IMG/VR virus record: IMGVR_UViG_3300034159_000067
Span: 1 to 42,086 of that record
DNA length: 42,086 bases
Direction: 5' to 3' (one strand)
Origin: a virus
Below are positions 1,259 through 25,848 of the stretch, one piece after another. The notes under the pieces were generated by a model. The model made no database searches and had not been told where the DNA came from. It saw only the letters and a program-made list of their open reading frames with translations. How positions within the stretch are numbered: position 1 is the stretch's first letter; each line of letters starts with the position of its first letter. Both the position numbers and the translations under genes were made by a program.

Positions 1259-2873
1259 CGCTGAGGTTCGCCCGACCGGTGAGGTTTGCGATCACGCGCG
1301 CCATCCGCATCAGTCCGGCGAGCTGCGCTTCGGCGACGCCGGGCTTCAGCGCGCGCAGCTTGTCTTGCACCTGCTGCAGCGACGTACTGCCCTCGATCAC
1401 CGCGCGCACTTCGTCGATCAGCGCATCGCCGCCCGGCGCGCACAGCTGCGCCGCCTGATCACTCATCGCGGCGATCGGATCGCGCACGTCGTGGAGCTGC
1501 TGCGCGTTCAGCGCCGGCCGCGCCGACGTCGCGCCGAACGACGGATCGAACGCCGAACCGAACGGCGACGCCGGCGCCGGCGCGGTCAGCAGCTCGGCGC
1601 CGGCCGCCGGAATCGGAATGCCCAAGAGATCGTTCGCCCAGCTCTTCTCGACCTGCAGGCCCATCGGTGCCAGCCGCACGATGCCGTCGATGATCTGTGA
1701 AACGTTCTTGCTATCAGGCCGGCCGATGCGCAGCCGCGGATAGGCTTTCTGCGGGCCGAATTCGAGCTGGACCCACGCCTGCACCAAGTCGCGGTTGAGG
1801 ATCGCGCTCAACGCCTTGGCGTCGGCGGCCTCGATATCCTCCTGCACCTGCCGGTGCTCCTGACCGACCGCGTGGCCGCCGGCGATCGCGTCGGTGGTGG
1901 CGGTCTGGCCGAGCACCGCCTTCGACATCTGCTGATCGAGCCAGTCGCAGCGCTCTTTGTAGAGCGCGTGGCTGGCGCCGACATTGCTGCTTTCGATGAA
2001 CTCGATCAGCATCGATTCCGGAATGATCGCCGCGCAGTCGCCGGCGATATTCGCCACCGCGCGAAACAGCGTGTCCTTGTCCTTCTCGCTGCTACCTGCC
2101 GGATATTTGCCGACCCGCACCGGCTGGCCGAAGGTCTGGGTGAACACCGCCCAATCGCGCTGCGTGAAGGCCTTGAACATCCAATGCCAGGCCGCGACCC
2201 GGCCGAGGCCGGAGCGCACCGGCAGGCCGCTCTTGGCGCGGATCACCGCGCTGATGAATTTGAACGCCGGCAGCGGCGCGTAGCCGGCGCCGTTCGGGCC
2301 GGCCGGCGGCAGGCCCTGCGCGAACGCATCCTGATTGACGTCGACGCGCAGCAGCGGCGTGACGCCGTCGCGGATGTCGGGCTTGAACCAGCGCTGGTCG
2401 CGCCGCTCCAGCCGCATCGGCATCCATTGCCCGGTCGAGGTGTCCCAGATGATTTCGGTGAAGCTCCAGCCCTTGCCGATCGCGTCGAGAATATCGAACA
2501 GTTCGCCCTGCAGCTCGTCGCGGCCGAGCCAGGCCTCGATCATGTCGGCATGCGCCTTGCCGTCCGGCGTGTCGTCGGCCGCCTCGATCTGGATATCGAG
2601 CTGCGCCACCGAGCGCTTGCGGGTGCCGAGCACGCCGAGGTAATGCGCGTCGCGCTCCTCGATCTGCTCGCACAGTTCGAAATACTGCACCGGATCGCCC
2701 TGATCCGCCGCGCGCAGGATCGACGCCAGCCGCCGCGGATTGAGCCCGTCGGCCGGATAGTCGGCGAACGGCGAGCGCACGCCGGTGATGGTCGGTCCGG
2801 CGATCTCGGTCGTCAGCACCTCGCGCCGGATCGGCGCGCCGTCAGGACCGTAGAGGATCGGGGCGTCAGCCAT
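1251..2873 (-). CDS. Portal protein (DUF935, Mu gp29 family)
   Basis: Portal of the Mu type, about 540 aa: the dodecameric ring through which DNA enters and leaves the head. Family-like stretches include PADGLNPRRLASILRAADQG near the N-terminus, YLGVLGTRKRSVAQLDI, GKGWSFTEIIWD, and FTQTFGQPVRVGKYPAG in the middle. An in-frame TTG at 2906 exists, but ATG 2873 follows an AAAGGA ribosome-binding sequence at good spacing and begins MADAPILYGPDG, so I prefer it. It lies between the terminase/DUF6197 genes and MuF, the Mu order except for one extra gene. Confidence 0.93.
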   Translation of the reverse strand: MADAPILYGPDGAPIRREVLTTEIAGPTITGVRSPFADYPADGLNPRRLASILRAADQGDPVQYFELCEQIEERDAHYLGVLGTRKRSVAQLDIQIEAADDTPDGKAHADMIEAWLGRDELQGELFDILDAIGKGWSFTEIIWDTSTGQWMPMRLERRDQRWFKPDIRDGVTPLLRVDVNQDAFAQGLPPAGPNGAGYAPLPAFKFISAVIRAKSGLPVRSGLGRVAAWHWMFKAFTQRDWAVFTQTFGQPVRVGKYPAGSSEKDKDTLFRAVANIAGDCAAIIPESMLIEFIESSNVGASHALYKERCDWLDQQMSKAVLGQTATTDAIAGGHAVGQEHRQVQEDIEAADAKALSAILNRDLVQAWVQLEFGPQKAYPRLRIGRPDSKNVSQIIDGIVRLAPMGLQVEKSWANDLLGIPIPAAGAELLTAPAPASPFGSAFDPSFGATSARPALNAQQLHDVRDPIAAMSDQAAQLCAPGGDALIDEVRAVIEGSTSLQQVQDKLRALKPGVAEAQLAGLMRMARVIANLTGRANLSDA

Positions 2874-2902: not shown

Positions 2903-3220
2903 TCAATCGAGCGCAGCGAGAACGTCGTCGATCGTCCGCCCTCGCGCATCATTCCAAGCCGTCAGATCGCGGCTGTTGTCGACACCGGCTGCCTCACAAA
3001 GAAAGCCAACTGCCCGTCTGGTAGCGAGAGGGCCACCGAGCACCCGATTTACAAGGGCGTCGTAGACGCAGTGCCATCCAATAAAGCCGTGCTCTCCCTC
3101 GAAACCACGTTCGCCGCCATAAGCACCGGGCTGTCCCCACCCTTCGTCCAGCAACTTTTGTTTCGTTGCAATGAGAACACCTGACGGAGTCCCAAGACTT
3201 TCCTGCGCGGTGGCAATCAC
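2903..3220 (-). CDS. Small DUF6197-like protein
   Basis: A 105-aa protein starting at GTG 3220, which overlaps the terminase TGA (GTGA) and follows GAGAGGTGG. It contains LLDEGWGQPGAYGG, then GFIGWHCVYDALVNR, and ends with LTAWNDARGRTIDDVLAALD. The W-N-D...R-T...D-V-L-A ending and the central GWHCVYDAL (compare CxxGAL) resemble the DUF6197 family, whose function is unknown. It sits between terminase and portal, where Mu has no gene, so it looks like accessory cargo translated with the packaging operon. The family call is from memory of the motif. Confidence 0.7.
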   Translation of the reverse strand: MIATAQESLGTPSGVLIATKQKLLDEGWGQPGAYGGERGFEGEHGFIGWHCVYDALVNRVLGGPLATRRAVGFLCEAAGVDNSRDLTAWNDARGRTIDDVLAALD

Positions 3221-6892: not shown

Positions 6893-7287
6893 CAGCTCAT
6901 CACCTTTTCCATCACGACTTCCTGCCACCGATCCGCGATTGCGGCGATCGGCTTGATCTTCTCGGTCAACCCGCGCATCTCGCCTCGCATTTCGCTGATC
7001 GAGACTTCGAGACGGTGGGTCGTATCCTTGTCGGGCAGATGCCTCATATCGTTTTCGACGATCGTGACGCGGTCCTCGACGAGATCGATCTTCCCGGCCA
7101 GAACACCGACCTGCTCGCGAGAGGCCTTCGCCTCGATCCACGTTTTCAACGACTCGTGCCCGGTCTCCAGCTTTTCGATCTTCTTGTCGGTCGCCTTCGA
7201 TCGGTTGGTGCTGATCGCGTACCAGAGCGTCGCCGCCGACATCACGATTGCGACCCACGGCGCAATTTCTGAAAGGACGATCGTCAT
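6892..7287 (-). CDS. DUF2730-like membrane protein (Mu gp25/26 position)
   Basis: A 131-aa protein with one N-terminal membrane segment (residues 5-24, IAPWVAIVMSAATLWYAIS) followed by a long charged helical region (about 30-125) with heptad-like spacing. This architecture is typical of the DUF2730 proteins between lysis and terminase genes in Mu-like phages. I chose the ATG at 7287 rather than upstream codons because translation there begins directly with the membrane segment. Function unknown. Confidence 0.82.
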   Translation of the reverse strand: MTIVLSEIAPWVAIVMSAATLWYAISTNRSKATDKKIEKLETGHESLKTWIEAKASREQVGVLAGKIDLVEDRVTIVENDMRHLPDKDTTHRLEVSISEMRGEMRGLTEKIKPIAAIADRWQEVVMEKVMS

Positions 7288-8931: not shown

Positions 8932-8964
8932 AGCAATCCCGCAATTTCCCGAAATTCCCGATGC

Positions 8965-8996
8965 TGACAGCTGTCACACGGTTTCCTGTGAAACCG
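8965..8996. promoter_or_regulatory. Two palindromes between mor and the lysis operon
   Basis: TGACAGCTGTCA (8965-8976) is a perfect 12-bp palindrome. CGGTTTC-CTGT-GAAACCG (8979-8996) is a perfect 7-bp hairpin. They fill the only sizeable gap in the leftward half between the regulatory genes and lysis/packaging genes. An operator for the Mor-like activator plus a weak terminator is a reasonable inference. I could not define a clear promoter. Confidence 0.5.
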
Positions 8997-9007
8997 GACT
9001 GATCGGG

Positions 9008-9418
9008 CTAGAACAGCGAGCCCTGATCGTCGTTGCCGCCGCCGCGGTGGCGCTCGCGATGCCGGAACACGGTGCGCTGCGTCAGGCCAAGCCTACCTGC
9101 AATTTCGCTCGACGACAAACCGGCCTCGTTCAGCTCGTGCATCTGCCGGGACAACGACCGCAGAAACTGCCGGTAGGTGCCGGTGGCATGCAGTGGAATC
9201 TCGATCTGCGCGCCGCGCCGGCGGTCGACCGCAAAATGCGTGCAGAGCCTGGTCGCGGCCTCGATGCCGACCAGGGCGGTCAGCCAGTGGTCGTCCGGGC
9301 CCGGCCGCGCCGGGATGTAGACGCGCTTGCCGCCATACTGCGCGGCGATCTTCAGCGCCGCGGCTTCGCCCGCGACCTCCGCGATCTCCTGCAACATCGC
9401 TGGTAGCGCCTTCGCCAT
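9008..9418 (-). CDS. Mor/C-like transcription activator
   Basis: A 136-aa member of the Mor transcription activator family, which turns on middle or late phage genes as a dimer. The family's beta-strand element with GGKRVYIP is at residues 29-36. The C-terminus has a helix-turn-helix (about 101-122: LSSSEIAGRLGLTQRTVFRH). It ends the early operon and is followed by palindromes and the lysis operon, as in Mu-like phages. Its targets here should include both the leftward lysis/packaging genes and the rightward head/tail genes. Confidence 0.88.
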   Translation of the reverse strand: MAKALPAMLQEIAEVAGEAAALKIAAQYGGKRVYIPARPGPDDHWLTALVGIEAATRLCTHFAVDRRRGAQIEIPLHATGTYRQFLRSLSRQMHELNEAGLSSSEIAGRLGLTQRTVFRHRERHRGGGNDDQGSLF

Positions 9419-19975: not shown

Positions 19976-20446
19976 ATGGCCTGGTCGAAGTTTGTAGTCG
20001 GCCTGTGCTGCGCGGTCTTGGCGGCGCCGACGTCGGCGGGTGCGTTCAGCTTGTCCGACCTGTTCGGCACGAGCGTTTCGGCGCAGATGATCGCCGCCTG
20101 TGAAGCCGCCTTGAAGAAACGCCTGGTGCAGCCGTCGAGTTATCGGCAGATCGAGGCGGTCGCGCGGGTCGAACCGTTGGCGCTCGACGTCTACTACGCG
20201 CTGAATACTGGCGAGAGCAAAGCCGTCCAAAACTTTCGGCGGCAGAGCGGTGCGACCGCGCAGCGTGTCGTCGCGGTCCTCGACTACAACGCCGCGGTGC
20301 CTGCGGGCGGCACGGTCCGCCGAGCGGCCGAATGCACCTACGAGACCATCGGCAAGATCGACGGCATTTCCGAACATGTGGTCCGGATCGACGGTAAAAG
20401 CCACACCGAATGGCTGGTGACCCAGCTCCCCCGGCCCCCCCACTGA
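19976..20446 (+). CDS. Secreted protein next to the repressor, candidate lysogenic-conversion gene
   Basis: A 156-aa protein with a Sec signal peptide (MAWSKFVVGLCCAVLAAPT, cleavage near SAGA-F). The mature part has two cysteines and the segments ACEAALKKRLVQPSSYRQIE, VFDYNAAV-like VLDYNAAVPAGG and AECTYETIGK. ATG 19976 follows GGAGGG. It is on the repressor strand 15 nt after it, so it is probably expressed in the lysogen. I recognise no named family; domain-like similarity to small periplasmic proteins of the host group is possible. Confidence 0.75.
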   Translation: MAWSKFVVGLCCAVLAAPTSAGAFSLSDLFGTSVSAQMIAACEAALKKRLVQPSSYRQIEAVARVEPLALDVYYALNTGESKAVQNFRRQSGATAQRVVAVLDYNAAVPAGGTVRRAAECTYETIGKIDGISEHVVRIDGKSHTEWLVTQLPRPPH

Positions 20447-20777
20447 CAGGCTTTCGGCCCGGCGGGCGCCGGGCGCGATCGGGGCGCCGGGACGCCCGGA
20501 TGCCGCGGGATTTTATTTAAACTGAAATTCAAGCGCCCCAGCCCCGGCGCGGGGCTATCCGGACCGGCTGGCGACCCCGGATTCCCGGCCGGACCCGGAG
20601 GGGGGTTGTTTTTCGTCAAAATCGGGTAGGATCAGCGGCGCCCGGCCGGTGCTTCGCGCGAGCCCGGTCGCCGCCGCCGGTCCGGCCTCCGGTCCGGCCA
20701 CAGATCCGGCTCGCATCCCGACCCGACTGACACCCGTCAGGGTTATCGATCCCGGATCGCCGCTCCAGTGTGGCGGC
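20447..20777. other. Intergenic region before the structural operon
   Basis: A 330-bp gap. The first part is very GC-rich with overlapping palindromes (CCCGGCGGGCGCCGGG and GGCGCCGGGACGCCC), a likely terminator zone for the lysogenic transcript. An AT-rich island at about 20508-20533 (GATTTTATTTAAACTGAAAT) and a TTGTTT-N15-TAGGAT pair at about 20606-20632 are candidate promoter elements for the head operon. No gene is supported here, although the protease frame stays open upstream to 20649. Confidence 0.5.
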
Positions 20778-21884
20778 ATGTCGGGACACAGCCACACACC
20801 TCCAACGTTGATGACGGCGCGCGGGATCGGCCAGCCGATCGCGCTGAACGCCGAGGGCGCCGCCCCGGACTGGATCATGCTGATCCCGGCCGGCGCCGGC
20901 GGCGTGCTGTCGACCGTCGACGGCCGCGGCCCGTTCCGCGTTGCCGATGCCGCCAAGCTCGCCATCCACAGTATGGCGGCGGCGGGCGGCCAGATCCTGA
21001 TCGACGAAAATCACGCCACCGATCTCGCCGCGCCGAAGGGCGAGCCGGCGCCGGCGCGCGGCTGGATCAAGGAATTGCAGGCGCGCGCCGACGGTATCTG
21101 GGGTCGGGTCGAGTGGAGCGCGGCCGGCGCCGCGCTGATGGCCGATCGCGCCTATCGCTTCATCTCCCCGGCGCTGCTGTGCGATCGGGCCGACAACGTT
21201 CTGGCGCTGCTACGCGCCTCGCTCGTCAACTCACCGAACCTGCGCGGCATGGCCGCTCTGCATCAACAGGAGACTTCAATGGACTTCCTCGCAAAGTTGC
21301 GCGCGCTGCTCGGCCTCGACGAAGGCGCCGACGAAGCCGCCGTGATGGCCAAGCTCGAAAGCATGATCAAGGACAAGAAGGGTGACGGCAACGGCGACGT
21401 CACCGCCGCGCTGAATGCCGCGCTGGCGCCGATCGCTGCCGCGATCGGACTCGGCGCCAATGCGGATGCAACGGCGATCGTCACCACGGTCAAGACGCTC
21501 GCCTCCAGCAAGGTCGACGGCGGCGTCATCGTGGCGCTGCAGAGCGAACTCAAGGACGTCACCACCCAGCTCAACGCGCTGCGCGCCGACAAGTCGAAGG
21601 ACGCCGCCACCGCGTTCGTCGATGCGGCGATCCGCGACGGCGTCGTCGGCGTCAAGCCGCTGCGCGATCACTACATCGCCCGCCATGCCGCCGACCCCGC
21701 CGGCGTCGAGAAGGAAATCAGTTCGTTCCCGAAGCTCGGCGCCAGCGGCACGCTGCAGACCGCGCCCGCCGTCAGCACCGACGGCAAGGTGTCGCTCAAC
21801 GCCGAGCAGCTCAACGCCGCCAAGATCCTCGGCATCAAGCCCGACGACTACGCCAAGACGCTCGCCGCCGAACAGGCCGGCTGA
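20778..21884 (+). CDS. Prohead protease/scaffold (Mu gp32 family)
   Basis: A 368-aa maturation protease. Family motifs are PIALNAEGAAPDWIMLIPAG, VDGRGPFRV, ILIDENHATDLAAPKGEPAP and GWIKELQARADGIWGRVEWS, then YRFISPALL. The histidine in ENHA is the likely catalytic residue. After residue ~165 the protein becomes helical scaffold. Start codon uncertain: ATG 20778, ATG 20811 (MTARGIGQPIALN) and GTG 20649 are all in frame, with no clear ribosome-binding site for any. In Mu this gene follows MuF; here it heads the rightward operon. Confidence 0.88.
   Translation: MSGHSHTPPTLMTARGIGQPIALNAEGAAPDWIMLIPAGAGGVLSTVDGRGPFRVADAAKLAIHSMAAAGGQILIDENHATDLAAPKGEPAPARGWIKELQARADGIWGRVEWSAAGAALMADRAYRFISPALLCDRADNVLALLRASLVNSPNLRGMAALHQQETSMDFLAKLRALLGLDEGADEAAVMAKLESMIKDKKGDGNGDVTAALNAALAPIAAAIGLGANADATAIVTTVKTLASSKVDGGVIVALQSELKDVTTQLNALRADKSKDAATAFVDAAIRDGVVGVKPLRDHYIARHAADPAGVEKEISSFPKLGASGTLQTAPAVSTDGKVSLNAEQLNAAKILGIKPDDYAKTLAAEQAG
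21279..21884 (+). CDS. Nested scaffold protein, internal start within the protease gene
   Basis: The in-frame ATG at 21279 has AGGAG seven bases upstream, far stronger than any signal at the protease start. The product (201 aa, MDFLAKLRALLGLDEGADEA onward) is the helical scaffold part alone. The same arrangement is known for Mu I/Z and lambda C/Nu3, where scaffold made from the internal start outnumbers the protease form. The long helices (VIVALQSELKDVTTQLNALR) suit a scaffolding rod. Confidence 0.82.
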   Translation: MDFLAKLRALLGLDEGADEAAVMAKLESMIKDKKGDGNGDVTAALNAALAPIAAAIGLGANADATAIVTTVKTLASSKVDGGVIVALQSELKDVTTQLNALRADKSKDAATAFVDAAIRDGVVGVKPLRDHYIARHAADPAGVEKEISSFPKLGASGTLQTAPAVSTDGKVSLNAEQLNAAKILGIKPDDYAKTLAAEQAG

Positions 21885-21942
21885 TCACGCCCGTTGAACC
21901 TCACTTGAAACGCGCGGCCAGGCCGCAACCAGGAGACTCCCG

Positions 21943-22716
21943 ATGACGGCACTATCCGCCGACCGCAATACGCCCCGGCTCGAAGGCGACCGCCGCGTCG
22001 GCTCCGCTGCCGCGGTCAAGATCTTCGCCGGCGCGCTCGTGATGCGCGACGCCTCCGGCTTCATCACCAAGGGGCAGACCGCGCTCGGCCTGCGCGGCGC
22101 CGGCCGCGCCGAGCGCGCTGTCGACAACTCGGCCGGCAGCGCCGGCGATCGCGACGTACCGTACCGGGCCGGCTTGTTCCGCTTTGTCAATTCGGCCTCG
22201 GCCGACGAAATCACCGCGGCCGATATCGGCAAGCTCTGCTACGCGGTCGACGATCAGACCGTCGCCAAGACCAACGGCAGCAATACGCGCTCGGCCGCCG
22301 GCATCGTCGCCGGCGTCGACAGCCTCGGCATCCATGTGCTGGTCGACGAGACGCTGCTCGCCGCCTATCTGGCGAACCGCCGGGTGTTCGTGCCGCTGCG
22401 CATCGCCACCCTGGTCGGCAGCAATGTCTACCGCACGCTGGCGCCGGTCGCGGGCCGCGTCGTCAAGATCTGGTCGATCACCGAAGGCGCGCTGACCACC
22501 GGCGACGCCACGCTGACGGCGAAGATCGGCGCCACCGCGATCACTGGCGGCGTCATCACCATCACCCAGTCGGGCTCGGCGGCGGGCGACAAGGACAGTG
22601 CCGTCCCGACCGCCGCCAACATCACCGCGGTCGGCGACGAACTCTCGCTCACCGTCGGCGGCAGCAACGCCACCGTCACCGTCGCCAACACGGTGTTCGA
22701 GATCGAGATCGACTAA
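21943..22716 (+). CDS. Head decoration-like protein (DUF2190-like)
   Basis: A 257-aa protein. The N-terminal half (GSAAAVKIFAGALVMRDASG, GLRGAGRAERAVDNSAG, TRSAAGIVAGVDSLGIHVLV) resembles the DUF2190-like decoration proteins encoded before Mu-type capsid genes. The C-terminal ~85 residues (VGSNVYRTLAPVAGRVVKIW onward, rich in T/G/A) look like an added beta domain, perhaps exposed on the capsid. AGGAG lies just before ATG 21943. Confidence 0.78.
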   Translation: MTALSADRNTPRLEGDRRVGSAAAVKIFAGALVMRDASGFITKGQTALGLRGAGRAERAVDNSAGSAGDRDVPYRAGLFRFVNSASADEITAADIGKLCYAVDDQTVAKTNGSNTRSAAGIVAGVDSLGIHVLVDETLLAAYLANRRVFVPLRIATLVGSNVYRTLAPVAGRVVKIWSITEGALTTGDATLTAKIGATAITGGVITITQSGSAAGDKDSAVPTAANITAVGDELSLTVGGSNATVTVANTVFEIEID

Positions 22717-22750
22717 GCGCTCCGTAACGCATCCAAGGGAACGAACCACC

Positions 22751-23644
22751 ATGCTGATCAATCGCGCCAACCTCGACTCGCTCCGGGTCGGTTTCAAGAC
22801 GACTTTCCAGGCGGGCCTCGGTGCGGCGCCGTCGATGTATCCGCGCGTCGCCACCGTGGTGCCGTCCAGCGTCCGCGAGGAGAAGTACGGCTGGCTCGGC
22901 AAGATCCCGAGCGTCCGCGAATGGATCGGCCCGCGCGTCGTGCAGAACATTTCCGAGTACGACTACGCGATCAAGAACAAGTCGTGGGAGCTGACGATCG
23001 GCGTCGATCGCGACGACATCGACGACGACAACCTCGGCATGTACACGCCGCTGTTCACCGAGATGGGAATGTCGACCGGCTCGCACACCGACCAGCTGGT
23101 GTTCTCGCTGCTCAAGGCCGGCTTCACCACCGGCTGCTACGACGGCCAGTATTTCTTCGACACCGATCATCCGGTGCTCGACGCCAATGGCGTGCCGCAG
23201 TCGGTCGCCAACACCGACGGCGGCTCCGGCACGCCGTGGTTCCTGCTGTGCCTCAATCGCGCGATCAAGCCGGTGATCTTCCAGAAGCGCAAGGACTGGC
23301 AGTTCGTCTCGCGCGACAAGCTCGAAGACGACGTCGTGTTCAACAATAAGGAATTCCAGTACGGCGCCGACGCCCGCGGCAATGTCGGCTTCGGCCTGTG
23401 GCAGCTCGCCTGGGGTTCGAAGCAGACGCTCGACGCCACCAACTACAAGGAGGCGCTGTCCGCGCTCGAAGGCATGAAGGGCGATTTCGACCGGCCGCTC
23501 GGCCTGTCCAACTTCACCCTCGTGGTGCCGCCGTCGCTGCGCGAGAACGGTCAGAAGCTGATCGTCTCCGAATACGCGTCCGGCGGCGAGAGCAACCCGT
23601 GGAAGGGCACCGCCGAGCTGCTCGTCGTGCCGTGGCTGGCGTGA
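22751..23644 (+). CDS. Major capsid protein (Mu gpT family)
   Basis: A 297-aa capsid protein. The MLINRANLDSLRVGFKTTFQ start and the stretches YPRVATVVPSSVREEKYGWL, IPSVREWIGPRVVQNI, and NKSWELTIGVDRDDIDDDNL are the hallmark of Mu gpT. GQYFFDTDHPVLDANG is also conserved. The length is typical. It follows the decoration gene with a 34-bp gap. Confidence 0.95.
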   Translation: MLINRANLDSLRVGFKTTFQAGLGAAPSMYPRVATVVPSSVREEKYGWLGKIPSVREWIGPRVVQNISEYDYAIKNKSWELTIGVDRDDIDDDNLGMYTPLFTEMGMSTGSHTDQLVFSLLKAGFTTGCYDGQYFFDTDHPVLDANGVPQSVANTDGGSGTPWFLLCLNRAIKPVIFQKRKDWQFVSRDKLEDDVVFNNKEFQYGADARGNVGFGLWQLAWGSKQTLDATNYKEALSALEGMKGDFDRPLGLSNFTLVVPPSLRENGQKLIVSEYASGGESNPWKGTAELLVVPWLA

Positions 23645-23652
23645 GGCCGGCG

Positions 23653-24156
23653 ATGGCGAAGAAACCGAAAGCCGAGAAGAAGCCCAAGGTGGATGCGGCA
23701 ACGCCGACTCCGCCGCCGCTCGCGGACGTGCTGGCGACCGCGGCGGAGGCCGAGCGGCTCGCGGCCGAGGCGCAGCAGATCGCGGCCGAACTCGACGCGT
23801 CGATCGCCGCCACCAATGCGGCTGCGGAGGCTGAGATGGCGGCGAAGGCCGGCGCGGAAAGCAAGTATCTCAACGTCCTCCTCGATTCCAAGACGATCAT
23901 CGATCAGCCTGCGCTGCGATACGAGGGGGCGGCCGAGGCGCGCGATGCGGCGGCGGCTCAGGCCGGTGCCGAGTTCGGCCCGCCCGCCATCTGGGTCAAA
24001 GCGAAATCCGAGCGCGGCCGGCGCCGCGCCGGCTTCGCCTTCACTCGCGAGCCGATGCTGATCTATCTCGAAGATCTGCACGGGTCCGGAGAGATCGAGG
24101 CGATCCTCAGTGATCCGGAGCTGATCGTCACCAAGGCAACCGACACGGCGGGATAG
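23653..24156 (+). CDS. HI1506-related head-neck protein
   Basis: A 167-aa protein. The lysine-rich, Ala/Glu-rich N-terminal half (about 1-80) is a probable coiled coil. The C-terminal GRRRAGFAFTREPMLIYLED, then EAILSDPELIVTKAT, matches the HI1506-related family (Mu gp35 position): a conserved R-x-G-F/A-F and D-P-x-L-x-V. The last 10 nt, including the TAG stop, are shared with the following tRNA. Confidence 0.8.
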   Translation: MAKKPKAEKKPKVDAATPTPPPLADVLATAAEAERLAAEAQQIAAELDASIAATNAAAEAEMAAKAGAESKYLNVLLDSKTIIDQPALRYEGAAEARDAAAAQAGAEFGPPAIWVKAKSERGRRRAGFAFTREPMLIYLEDLHGSGEIEAILSDPELIVTKATDTAG

Positions 24157-24223
24157 CGCAGCCCGGTAGCGCGGCGGGCTCATAACCCGCAGGTCGGTGG
24201 TTCGAATCCATCTCCCGCAACCA
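24147..24223 (+). tRNA. Initiator-like tRNA-Met (anticodon CAT), phage-encoded
   Basis: A 77-nt tRNA with encoded CCA. Acceptor stem GCGGGA/TCCCGC (positions 2-7/66-71) with an unpaired G1/A72, the 1:72 mismatch typical of bacterial initiators. D arm GCGC-AGCCCGGTA-GCGC; anticodon stem GCGGG/CCCGC with loop CTCATAA, so three G:C pairs sit next to the loop, the P-site hallmark of initiator tRNA; T arm GGTGG-TTCGAAT-CCATC. All arms are complete. It overlaps the preceding coding sequence by 10 nt and lies within the head operon, so its processing would cut the operon mRNA. Confidence 0.92.
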
Positions 24224-24241
24224 ACACAGCAAGAGGACACC

Positions 24242-24457
24242 ATGACCACCACCGTGAAGGTTCACGTCAACGGCCAGTACCGAACGACCGTGAAGCAAAC
24301 CGACTCGTTCGGCCACGTCGTCGAGACAGTGATCGAGGGCAACTACAACGGCGGCAGCGGCGAAGCGTCGTTCTATCTCAGCCACCCGGCCACCGGCACT
24401 TTCGAGATCACCGAAGTCTACGTCACCGACGACGACAAGCGTCCCGCCGAAGGCTGA
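24242..24457 (+). CDS. Small hypothetical protein
   Basis: A 71-aa mostly beta protein: VKVHVNGQYRTTVKQTDSFG, then VIEGNYNGGSGEASFYLSHP and FEITEVYVTDDD. AAGAGGA before ATG 24242 is a good ribosome-binding site. It starts 18 nt after the tRNA. Similar short beta proteins accompany head genes in related phages, but I recognise no family. Confidence 0.72.
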   Translation: MTTTVKVHVNGQYRTTVKQTDSFGHVVETVIEGNYNGGSGEASFYLSHPATGTFEITEVYVTDDDKRPAEG

Positions 24458-24534
24458 CGCCCGTTTCGAAATCCTGCGCGCCGCAGACGTCCTGACCTGA
24501 TGCGCGCTCGATCGGTCGCCTCGTGCGGCTCCTT

Positions 24535-24565
24535 CCTGCCGCGGTGCTCGTACCACCGCGGCGGG
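24535..24565 (+). promoter_or_regulatory. Stable 12-bp hairpin in the gap after the tRNA
   Basis: CCTGCCGCGGTG (24535-24546) pairs with CACCGCGGCGGG (24554-24565), with one G-T pair and a 7-nt loop CTCGTAC. It lies in the 136-bp gap before the gene at 24594. No T-run follows, so it could be a terminator needing other factors, an mRNA-stability element, or a processing signal. Confidence 0.55.
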
Positions 24566-24593
24566 ACTCGGGTTCAACCAGAGGGGTGCCGCG

Positions 24594-24860
24594 ATGGCCA
24601 AACAACCGCCTTTCAAGATCGACGACGAGTCCTACCGCGAGGGCCGCGACGCCTTCACCCGCGGCGCGACCCTGCGCTCGATCGTCGAGCAGCTCGCCGC
24701 TTTCGGCGCCGACCAGGTCGAGGATCAGAAAGCCTTCAGCGGCGTACTCGGCTTCGCCGACGCGCTGCTCGATCACATCCGCAAGCCGCTGATCACCTGT
24801 CAGCTCGGCGGTCTCGAGCACGCATCGGTGTGGCCGAGCGACGACAAGGTGACCCGATGA
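24594..24860 (+). CDS. Hypothetical head-operon protein
   Basis: An 88-aa protein: FKIDDESYREGRDAFTRGAT, then a helix with VEQLAAFGADQVED and FADALLDHIRKPL. GAGGGG precedes the ATG. The stop overlaps the gp36 start (ATGA). No family recognised. Confidence 0.68.
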   Translation: MAKQPPFKIDDESYREGRDAFTRGATLRSIVEQLAAFGADQVEDQKAFSGVLGFADALLDHIRKPLITCQLGGLEHASVWPSDDKVTR

Positions 24861-25285
24861 CCTACGCGTCGCAAGCCGATCTGGTCGACCGCTACGGCGC
24901 GCCGATGCTGGTCGATCTCACCGATCGCGCCGAGGTGGCGACCGGGGCGATCGACGATGCCGTGATCGCGCGCGCGCTGGCCGATACCGACGCGGCGATC
25001 GACGGCTATCTGAAGGGCCGCTACGCGCTGCCGCTGCCGACGACGCCGCCGGCGCTGCGCGACATCGCGCTGTCGATCGCGGTCTACAAGCTGCACCGCG
25101 ATGCGGTCTCGGAGAAGATCCGCGTCGACTATGTGGACGCGATCAAGTCGCTGGCGCTGATCAGTAGCGGCACGATCCGGCTCGACGTCGCCGGCATCGA
25201 GCCCGAGGCGTCGGGCGCGACCGGCGTGCGCTTCACCGATCGCGACCGGCCGCTCACCGCCGACAGCCTCAAGGGCTACATCTGA
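24857..25285 (+). CDS. Head-tail connector (DUF1320, Mu gp36-like)
   Basis: A 142-aa DUF1320 protein, a neck/adaptor family. MTYASQADLVDRYGAPMLVD, then ALADTDAAIDGYLKGRYALP and PPALRDIALSIAVYKLH are the canonical motifs. It lies between small head genes and the virion morphogenesis gene, as expected. Confidence 0.92.
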   Translation: MTYASQADLVDRYGAPMLVDLTDRAEVATGAIDDAVIARALADTDAAIDGYLKGRYALPLPTTPPALRDIALSIAVYKLHRDAVSEKIRVDYVDAIKSLALISSGTIRLDVAGIEPEASGATGVRFTDRDRPLTADSLKGYI

Positions 25286-25848
25286 TGACCGGCGCGCTGC
25301 TCGATGTGAAACTCACCGATGCGGAGGACGCGCTGGCGCCGCTCGCCGGCTACATCGCGCGCGCCGGCGACACGCGCGGGCTGTTCGAAAACATCGGCGC
25401 ATCGGTGCAGACCTCGACGATGCACCGCTTCGAGACCGGCAAGGCGCCGGACGGCTCGCCCTGGCCGCCGTCGCTGCGCGTCAAGCAACATGGCGGCTTC
25501 ACGCTGCGGCTCACCGCGCGGCTGATGCGCTCGATCACCTATCTGGCCGACTCGGCCAGCGTCGAGATCGGCACCAATGTGGTGTATGCGGCGATCCATC
25601 AGCTCGGCGGCATCATCAGCCAGGCGGCCCGCACCGCGGTGCTGCATTTCAAGACCAGCAAAAAGACCGGCAAGACGCTGTTCGCCAAGCCCGGCAAGGC
25701 GGATCGGGCGCAGAAGGCCGCGATCGGCGCCCGCACCATCACGATGCCGGCGCGGCCGTTCCTCGGCCTCGACGACGACGACAATCGCGAGATCCTCAGC
25801 ATCGCCGAGCAATGGCTCGCGGGCGAACGCGGAGGCGCGGTCGCATGA
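25285..25848 (+). CDS. Phage virion morphogenesis protein (Mu gpG-like)
   Basis: A 187-aa protein of the virion morphogenesis/tail completion family. RFETGKAPDGSPWPPSLR, GFTLRLTARLMRSITYLADS, IGTNVVYAAIHQLGGII and TITMPARPFLGLDD are the conserved order G-x-P-W-P, L-x-x-S-I, N-x-x-Y-A-x-x-H-Q-x-G and P-x-R-P-F-L-G. In Mu gpG lies next to MuF; here it has stayed with the tail half. TGATG coupling to gp36. Confidence 0.9.
   Translation: MTGALLDVKLTDAEDALAPLAGYIARAGDTRGLFENIGASVQTSTMHRFETGKAPDGSPWPPSLRVKQHGGFTLRLTARLMRSITYLADSASVEIGTNVVYAAIHQLGGIISQAARTAVLHFKTSKKTGKTLFAKPGKADRAQKAAIGARTITMPARPFLGLDDDDNREILSIAEQWLAGERGGAVA

Follow-up and report, generated by a model that had tools for sequence, protein, structure and literature searches.

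An initiator-type tRNA gene recurs at the capsid/head-tail adaptor boundary of Mu-like phages of alphaproteobacteria

We describe a 77-nt tRNA-Met(CAT) gene of initiator type, with an encoded CCA, at positions 24147-24223 (+ strand) of an IMG/VR virus record of 42,086 bases (hereafter the window, meaning the whole stretch of DNA that was analysed). It is one of 12 distinct intact tRNA-Met-like genes that all lie where the capsid module meets the head-tail adaptor gene in alphaproteobacterial Mu-like phages, and this recurrence at one module boundary is a new observation. Judging from sequence comparisons, we give a probability of roughly 55% to the reading that the gene encodes a functional initiator-type tRNA and is accessory, occupying a hypervariable slot that separates the capsid genes of these phages from the connector genes, with the raising of initiation late in infection as the leading reading of what it would do there. 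Why phages carry tRNAs is a long-standing question, usually seen in terms of codon supply or nuclease evasion. An initiator-type tRNA is of no use for supplying elongation codons, and the anticodon loop of this one matches that of the likely host; the recurrence suggests that an extra starter tRNA, the cutting of viral messages, or both, may matter. At this site the element occurs intact, with an altered anticodon, as a non-decoding form or not at all, and this natural series, a small temperate phage with one tRNA and a relative in a cultured host would together permit a direct separation of initiation supply, mRNA processing and passenger status.

Among the open reading frames of the window are those for a Mu-type transposase, Mu Gam, GemA, a portal, Gp27, a gpF-like protein, a head protease and gpT-type major head proteins, and a Mor-like protein scores slightly below the cut-off. 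This Mu-type gene set indicates that the window is a Mu-like phage, in all appearance a Mu-like virus of alphaproteobacteria. The transposase is a Mu-type DDE enzyme (phrog_310, PF09299). Of the relatives found, the closest is L083, a prophage of Rhodopseudomonas pseudopalustris DSM 123, whose head protein is 91% identical to that of the window over the match and 96% identical over the tree columns; it is via this prophage that R. pseudopalustris was assigned as the likely host. The major head protein ORF, of gpT type (22598..23644, +; phrog_371, E 1.3e-117; homology from about residue 52), is followed by a HI1506-like ORF (23653..24156, +), which encodes 167 aa from its likely ATG and matches phrog_27280 weakly (E 2.3e-05). 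The 10-nt overlap between this ORF and the tRNA, claimed in the first-pass annotation, is confirmed, as its TAG stop codon (24154-24156) falls inside the tRNA and forms U8 A9 G10. Starting 18 nt past the tRNA CCA is a 71-aa ORF (24242..24457, +), which has a good ribosome-binding site and gave no family match in PHROG and Pfam searches. It is probably an insertion beside the tRNA, because it is absent from L083 while the tRNA is present there. The head-tail adaptor (24860..25285, +; phrog_195, E 2.6e-41) is the first connector gene past the accessory site. No sigma-70 promoter match was found in 20400-25400, which spans the genes from protease to adaptor, and terminator matches in the same interval were at chance level only. 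As there is no promoter match between the protease and adaptor genes, the tRNA was taken to be a member of the head operon, which would place it on the late head transcript. ARAGORN additionally called a tRNA-Pro at 1519-1592 (-), which is without Rfam support, lies inside the Mu portal gene (1251-2906, -) and is probably a false positive.

For the tRNA-Met itself, said in the first-pass annotation to be complete, ARAGORN returned the same coordinates, while cmscan matched Rfam RF00005 at 24147-24220 with 61.5 bits and E 4.6e-11, the gathering score being 29, and our model R1 gave 101.7 bits. Its letters are GGCGGGA TA GCGC AGCCCGGTA GCGC G GCGGG CTCATAA CCCGC AGGTC GGTGG TTCGAAT CCATC TCCCGCA A CCA. 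In the acceptor stem, GGCGGGA/TCCCGCA, G1 (24147) is unpaired with A72 (24219). The anticodon arm GCGGG-CTCATAA-CCCGC (24174..24190) has three G:C pairs adjoining the loop and the anticodon CAT at 24181-24183, and the T arm, 3' acceptor strand, A73 and CCA (24196..24223) make up the part that is best kept in the non-decoding relatives described below. The initiator hallmarks listed at first pass (G1·A72, GGG:CCC, CAT and an encoded CCA) can all be read in the sequence.

The main bacterial initiator determinants are a weak 1:72, G2:C71/C3:G70 and GGG:CCC, and those for formylation are a weak 1:72, G2:C71, C3:G70 and G4:C69. The window tRNA has the initiator features of no strong 1:72 pair, three G:C pairs at 29-31:39-41, CAT and A73. 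Bacterial initiators also have A11:U24, purine 11:pyrimidine 24 being a minor determinant, and this one feature is missing: the D stem of the window tRNA has C11:G24, which is elongator type, whereas the initiator of the likely host (L172) has A11:U24. In the comparison with host tRNA-fMet proposed at first pass, the window tRNA shows 83% identity to host initiators, as against 79% to host elongator tRNA-Met and 61% to an Ile2-like tRNA; it has the anticodon loop of L172 and departs from L172 at 11:24. In R. pseudopalustris the model scored best on three genes: the copy in the prophage, the host initiator L172 and the elongator L180. G1·U72, itself weak, is frequent in the elongator tRNA-Met genes of these hosts (L180, L182, L183 and L184), so a weak 1:72 says less here than it would in E. 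coli. By single-sequence fold energy the tRNAs were not separable from shuffles (z -0.8 for the window), so fold energy was not taken as evidence for tRNAs.

Comparison with L083 shows that the tRNA is well conserved. The two copies are identical at 76/77 positions, and the sole difference turns G50·U64 into G50-C64, which preserves the T-stem pair. Identity is 136/150 over the 150 nt before the tRNA and 108/127 over the spacer after it, and over the whole interval from the head protein stop to the tRNA the figure is 338/442. The conservation excess of the tRNA is clear over the downstream spacer and modest over the nearest flank, since the flank adjoining the tRNA is well conserved too. The possibility of a pseudogene, raised at first pass, is contradicted by both the tool scores and the near-identity to L083: the window tRNA is neither decaying nor a pseudogene by tool score or conservation. 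L083 also has, as does L003, three tandem tRNA-like pieces between the head protease gene and the head gene that follows it (7124-7310 in L083), which comprise D and/or T arms with the anticodon arm reduced or absent; the best of them, at 7172-7243, scores 45.2 bits to model R1. The only candidate for a counterpart in the window was a 19-nt acceptor-like match at chance level (E 0.41).

Relatives were gathered by head-protein-seeded searches of viral contigs and genome contigs, and 186 distinct head-protein-to-adaptor intervals were delimited. An intact tRNA-Met-like gene is present in 11 of these, most relatives having no tRNA, and a family-wide genome search added one more intact copy (L520) to give the 12 distinct sequences. 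Across these same-site copies 95.6% of helix cells are paired, 10 pairs have changed on both sides, and the covariation score is 0.469, compared with 0.142 for shuffled alignments and at most 0.089 for slid ones. Position 1:72 is unpaired (G·A, C·A, A·A or A·C) in eight copies, U:A or A:U in four and G:C in none, and G2:C71, C3:G70 and G4:C69 are invariant (12/12). The GGG:CCC anticodon stem is found in the window, L083 and L059, with one pair changed in most other copies. Some features point the other way: 11:24 is elongator-type (C:G or U:A) in 9/12 copies and A:U in only 3/12, L010, L089 and L204 have bodies that resemble elongator tRNA-Met more closely and are without the third G:C pair, and L520 has C73. 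All same-strand tRNAs at the site are tRNA-Met(CAT) except that of L135 from Roseobacter insulae (8952-9026), which is of the same type with a changed anticodon. This initiator-like tRNA has a TAT anticodon and A1·C72, and lies 9 nt past the stop of the major head protein gene; it may be decaying, or it may initiate at AUA/AUG with a different amino acid.

Two further tRNAs were noted in the course of these searches. Prophages of Agrobacterium vitis and Allorhizobium carry an Ile2-like tRNA (CAT, G1:C72) in this accessory slot, encoded on the other strand (L141, 9259-9334, and L142, 9288-9363, both -). A phage-like region of Xanthobacter autotrophicus AM3 has an initiator-like tRNA with U1:A72 (L176, 1501-1575), which was set aside as a same-site case, as it is not in a head operon as far as that region was read and its contig differs from that of the Mu-like prophage.

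The constant feature of the position of these elements is the boundary between capsid module and adaptor. In 10 of the 13 elements measured, the element starts 5-12 nt past the upstream stop codon; the 10-nt overlap with the upstream ORF is seen among them in the window and L083 only, and for L059 the limits used gave no clear ORF upstream. Most elements follow a HI1506-like gene; those of L013, L100 and L267 follow a different small gene, and that of L135 follows the gene for the major head protein. The capsid-to-adaptor gap is highly variable (220-1385 nt, 5-95%) compared with a median of about 0 for the next gap. Presence of the tRNA is unclustered on the head-protein tree, with 12 changes against a shuffled mean of 12.7 and 131/500 shuffles as low, counts that rest on a quick FastTree tree in which many branches are weakly supported. 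In the close pair L122 and L108, of which the former has the tRNA and the latter does not, the downstream spacer is common to both. From the scattered presence and the hypervariable interval we infer an accessory slot with frequent gain and loss.

In three lineages the same site holds a structure that is tRNA-shaped and has no usable anticodon, with acceptor pairing and terminal CCA kept. In L522 and L540, two prophages of one genome, the acceptor, D and T stems and the CCA are present and a 17-nt anticodon loop replaces CTCATAA. In L267/L268 the acceptor stem, T arm and CCA are kept and another hairpin replaces the D and anticodon arms; their relative L266, of the L013 type, has an intact tRNA. 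L098/L012 have a GC-rich cloverleaf ending in ACCA, with unrelated arms and a fold z of -4.2, and with flanks that resemble those of L089 in a by-eye comparison. These elements start 12 nt (L267, L522 and L540) or 8 nt (L098) past a stop codon. The genome with L522 and L540 (G044) has three Mu-like head-protein copies, the third being L542, and two of the three have the same non-decoding element; the downstream flanks of the element are nearly identical and the upstream flanks more divergent, a pattern that suggests recombination near the element. Together these forms argue that decoding may be lost while the tRNA shape persists, as would be expected for an RNase P substrate. Gene decay could account for them just as well, given that there are only three lineages and that the covariance model favours forms that keep their stems.

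Under the initiator reading, the tRNA would be transcribed with the late head mRNA, host RNase P would cut this transcript at G1 to free the tRNA 5' end, and host tRNA processing would trim the 3' end to the CCA. MetRS would then charge the phage tRNA, and after formylation IF2 would use it, raising the supply of initiator tRNA at the time when virion mRNAs dominate. Cutting of the polycistronic head mRNA would be a by-product, possibly a selected one. In the window the predicted RNase P cut lies inside the upstream ORF, 7 nt ahead of its stop codon, so a given transcript could give rise to the complete upstream protein or to the tRNA but not to both. Such exclusion would follow from the layout and would apply to the window/L083 type only.

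The elongator-type 11:24 in most copies, the elongator-like bodies of L010, L089 and L204, the TAT anticodon of L135 and the absence of a tRNA from most relatives count against the initiator reading, and the lineages of L522/L540, L267/L268 and L098/L012 would show that decoding is dispensable there. The main role could instead be RNA processing, with a tRNA-shaped RNase P/3'-processing element cutting the head mRNA between the genes of the abundant capsid module and the low-copy connector genes, and decoding as a by-product that can be lost. The acceptor/T half with CCA is the minimal RNase P substrate, and it is what the non-decoding structures retain at the same site, a short way past a stop codon in L267, L098, L522 and L540; these forms favour processing in some lineages. 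Pure processing has no need for a weak or unpaired 1:72, yet this is kept in all 12 intact copies, which favours initiator use, and L098, in which the tRNA sequence is lost, has a G1:C72 pair. The three lineages may moreover be pseudogenes in decay, found by a model that favours stem-keepers, and other CCA-ending minihelices are in no clear excess in the 186 regions (16 regions have one, 10 of them as intact tRNAs, where shuffles give about 4). We consider a main role in processing unlikely, although it is the best placed of the alternatives. There is also a mixed account, on which a captured initiator tRNA serves as RNase P-cut punctuation between the capsid and connector cistrons that is non-decoding in some lineages and also a late initiator supply in others; this we hold to be doubtful.

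The tRNA might also be a neutral or weakly selected passenger in a slot that gains and loses genes. The variable capsid-to-adaptor gap, the unclustered presence on the capsid tree, the minus-strand tRNA in L141/L142 and the window-specific 71-aa ORF adjoining the tRNA all agree with this, but a passenger would not account well for same-strand tRNAs that are all tRNA-Met(CAT) or the L135 variant, for the strong covariation or for the near-fixed spacing past the stop codon, and we regard it as improbable. Finally, the first-pass annotation had suggested that the phage tRNA might make good the loss of host initiator tRNA to anticodon nucleases, VapC being the example given. For cleavage of initiator tRNA by VapC, PMC10264068 cites Winther and Gerdes 2011, and the phage anticodon stem does differ from that of the likely host (GGG:CCC vs AGG:CCT in L172). 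The nuclease-evasion hypothesis, however, rests on anticodon-loop changes relative to the host tRNA (PMC10264068), and rescue is disfavoured here because the loop CTCATAA is the same in the window and in L172. In addition, a Pfam search of 30 window ORFs gave no PIN/VapC domain, and phages generally avoid encoding tRNA-fMet where VapC(-LT2) targets it (PMC10264068). We consider this suggestion very improbable, and the initiator reading, with raised initiation late in infection, remains the leading one.

Phage initiator tRNAs are common, and the first-pass view that phage tRNAs are usually elongators proved too strong. Using a narrow initiator pattern in IMG/VR, a tRNA was confirmed by ARAGORN in 68/80 loci read, among the matches listed, and it was often the only tRNA of its locus; the kind is therefore already known. 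CCA is encoded in 22 of the pattern loci, 20 of which are without G:C at 1:72 (again among the matches listed). A same-strand upstream ORF of at least 80 aa lies within 350 nt, at variable distance, in 35/68 confirmed loci among the matches listed, and these 35 give no capsid preference, nudix hydrolases being commonest. An annotated example of tRNA-fMet is found in Stenotrophomonas phage vB_Sm_QDWS359. Nocardia phage NTR1 (L397) has an unannotated tRNA-Met-like match at about 3001-3078, in the gap directly after the major tail protein gene, which is a possible parallel, in an unrelated phage, of a tRNA behind a highly expressed structural gene.

Several known systems invite comparison. Varshney and colleagues have reportedly described unconventional Rhizobiales initiator tRNAs with an AGG:CCU anticodon stem. 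The likely host's own initiator (L172, AGG:CCT) is of this type, and several phage copies likewise have one of the three G:C pairs changed; the window tRNA differs in having the canonical GGG:CCC. Punctuation by tRNAs, with RNase P processing of polycistronic RNA, is familiar from mitochondria and E. coli operons. The element studied here resembles such systems in that a tRNA lies directly between coding sequences, probably on one transcript, the cutting being in this case a prediction, and no tRNA-punctuated phage head operon was found in the open-access papers searched. In tRNA-dependent lysogeny, which requires a site-specific integrase acting at a host tRNA gene (PMC10865867), the phage is likewise temperate with a single tRNA gene. 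We rejected this system as a candidate; it does not fit because the phage transposes, and it is a Mu-type DDE transposase, rather than an integrase with an attB site, that was found among the window ORFs searched.

A further parallel is given by the known phage initiator tRNAs, which similarly occur as one or few tRNA genes with a CAT anticodon and an initiator-type acceptor end. They include those of temperate phages of alphaproteobacteria, as here, and Sinorhizobium phiLM21-like prophages carry tRNA-fMet (PMC12429752). In contrast to these, the present gene belongs to a transposable Mu-like phage, sits in the putative head operon and overlaps a coding sequence, and its site recurs in relatives, sometimes with a non-decoding form. 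The distinctive part is the tight embedding behind the capsid module, and it is this operon-embedded, recurrent and sometimes non-decoding form that is new.
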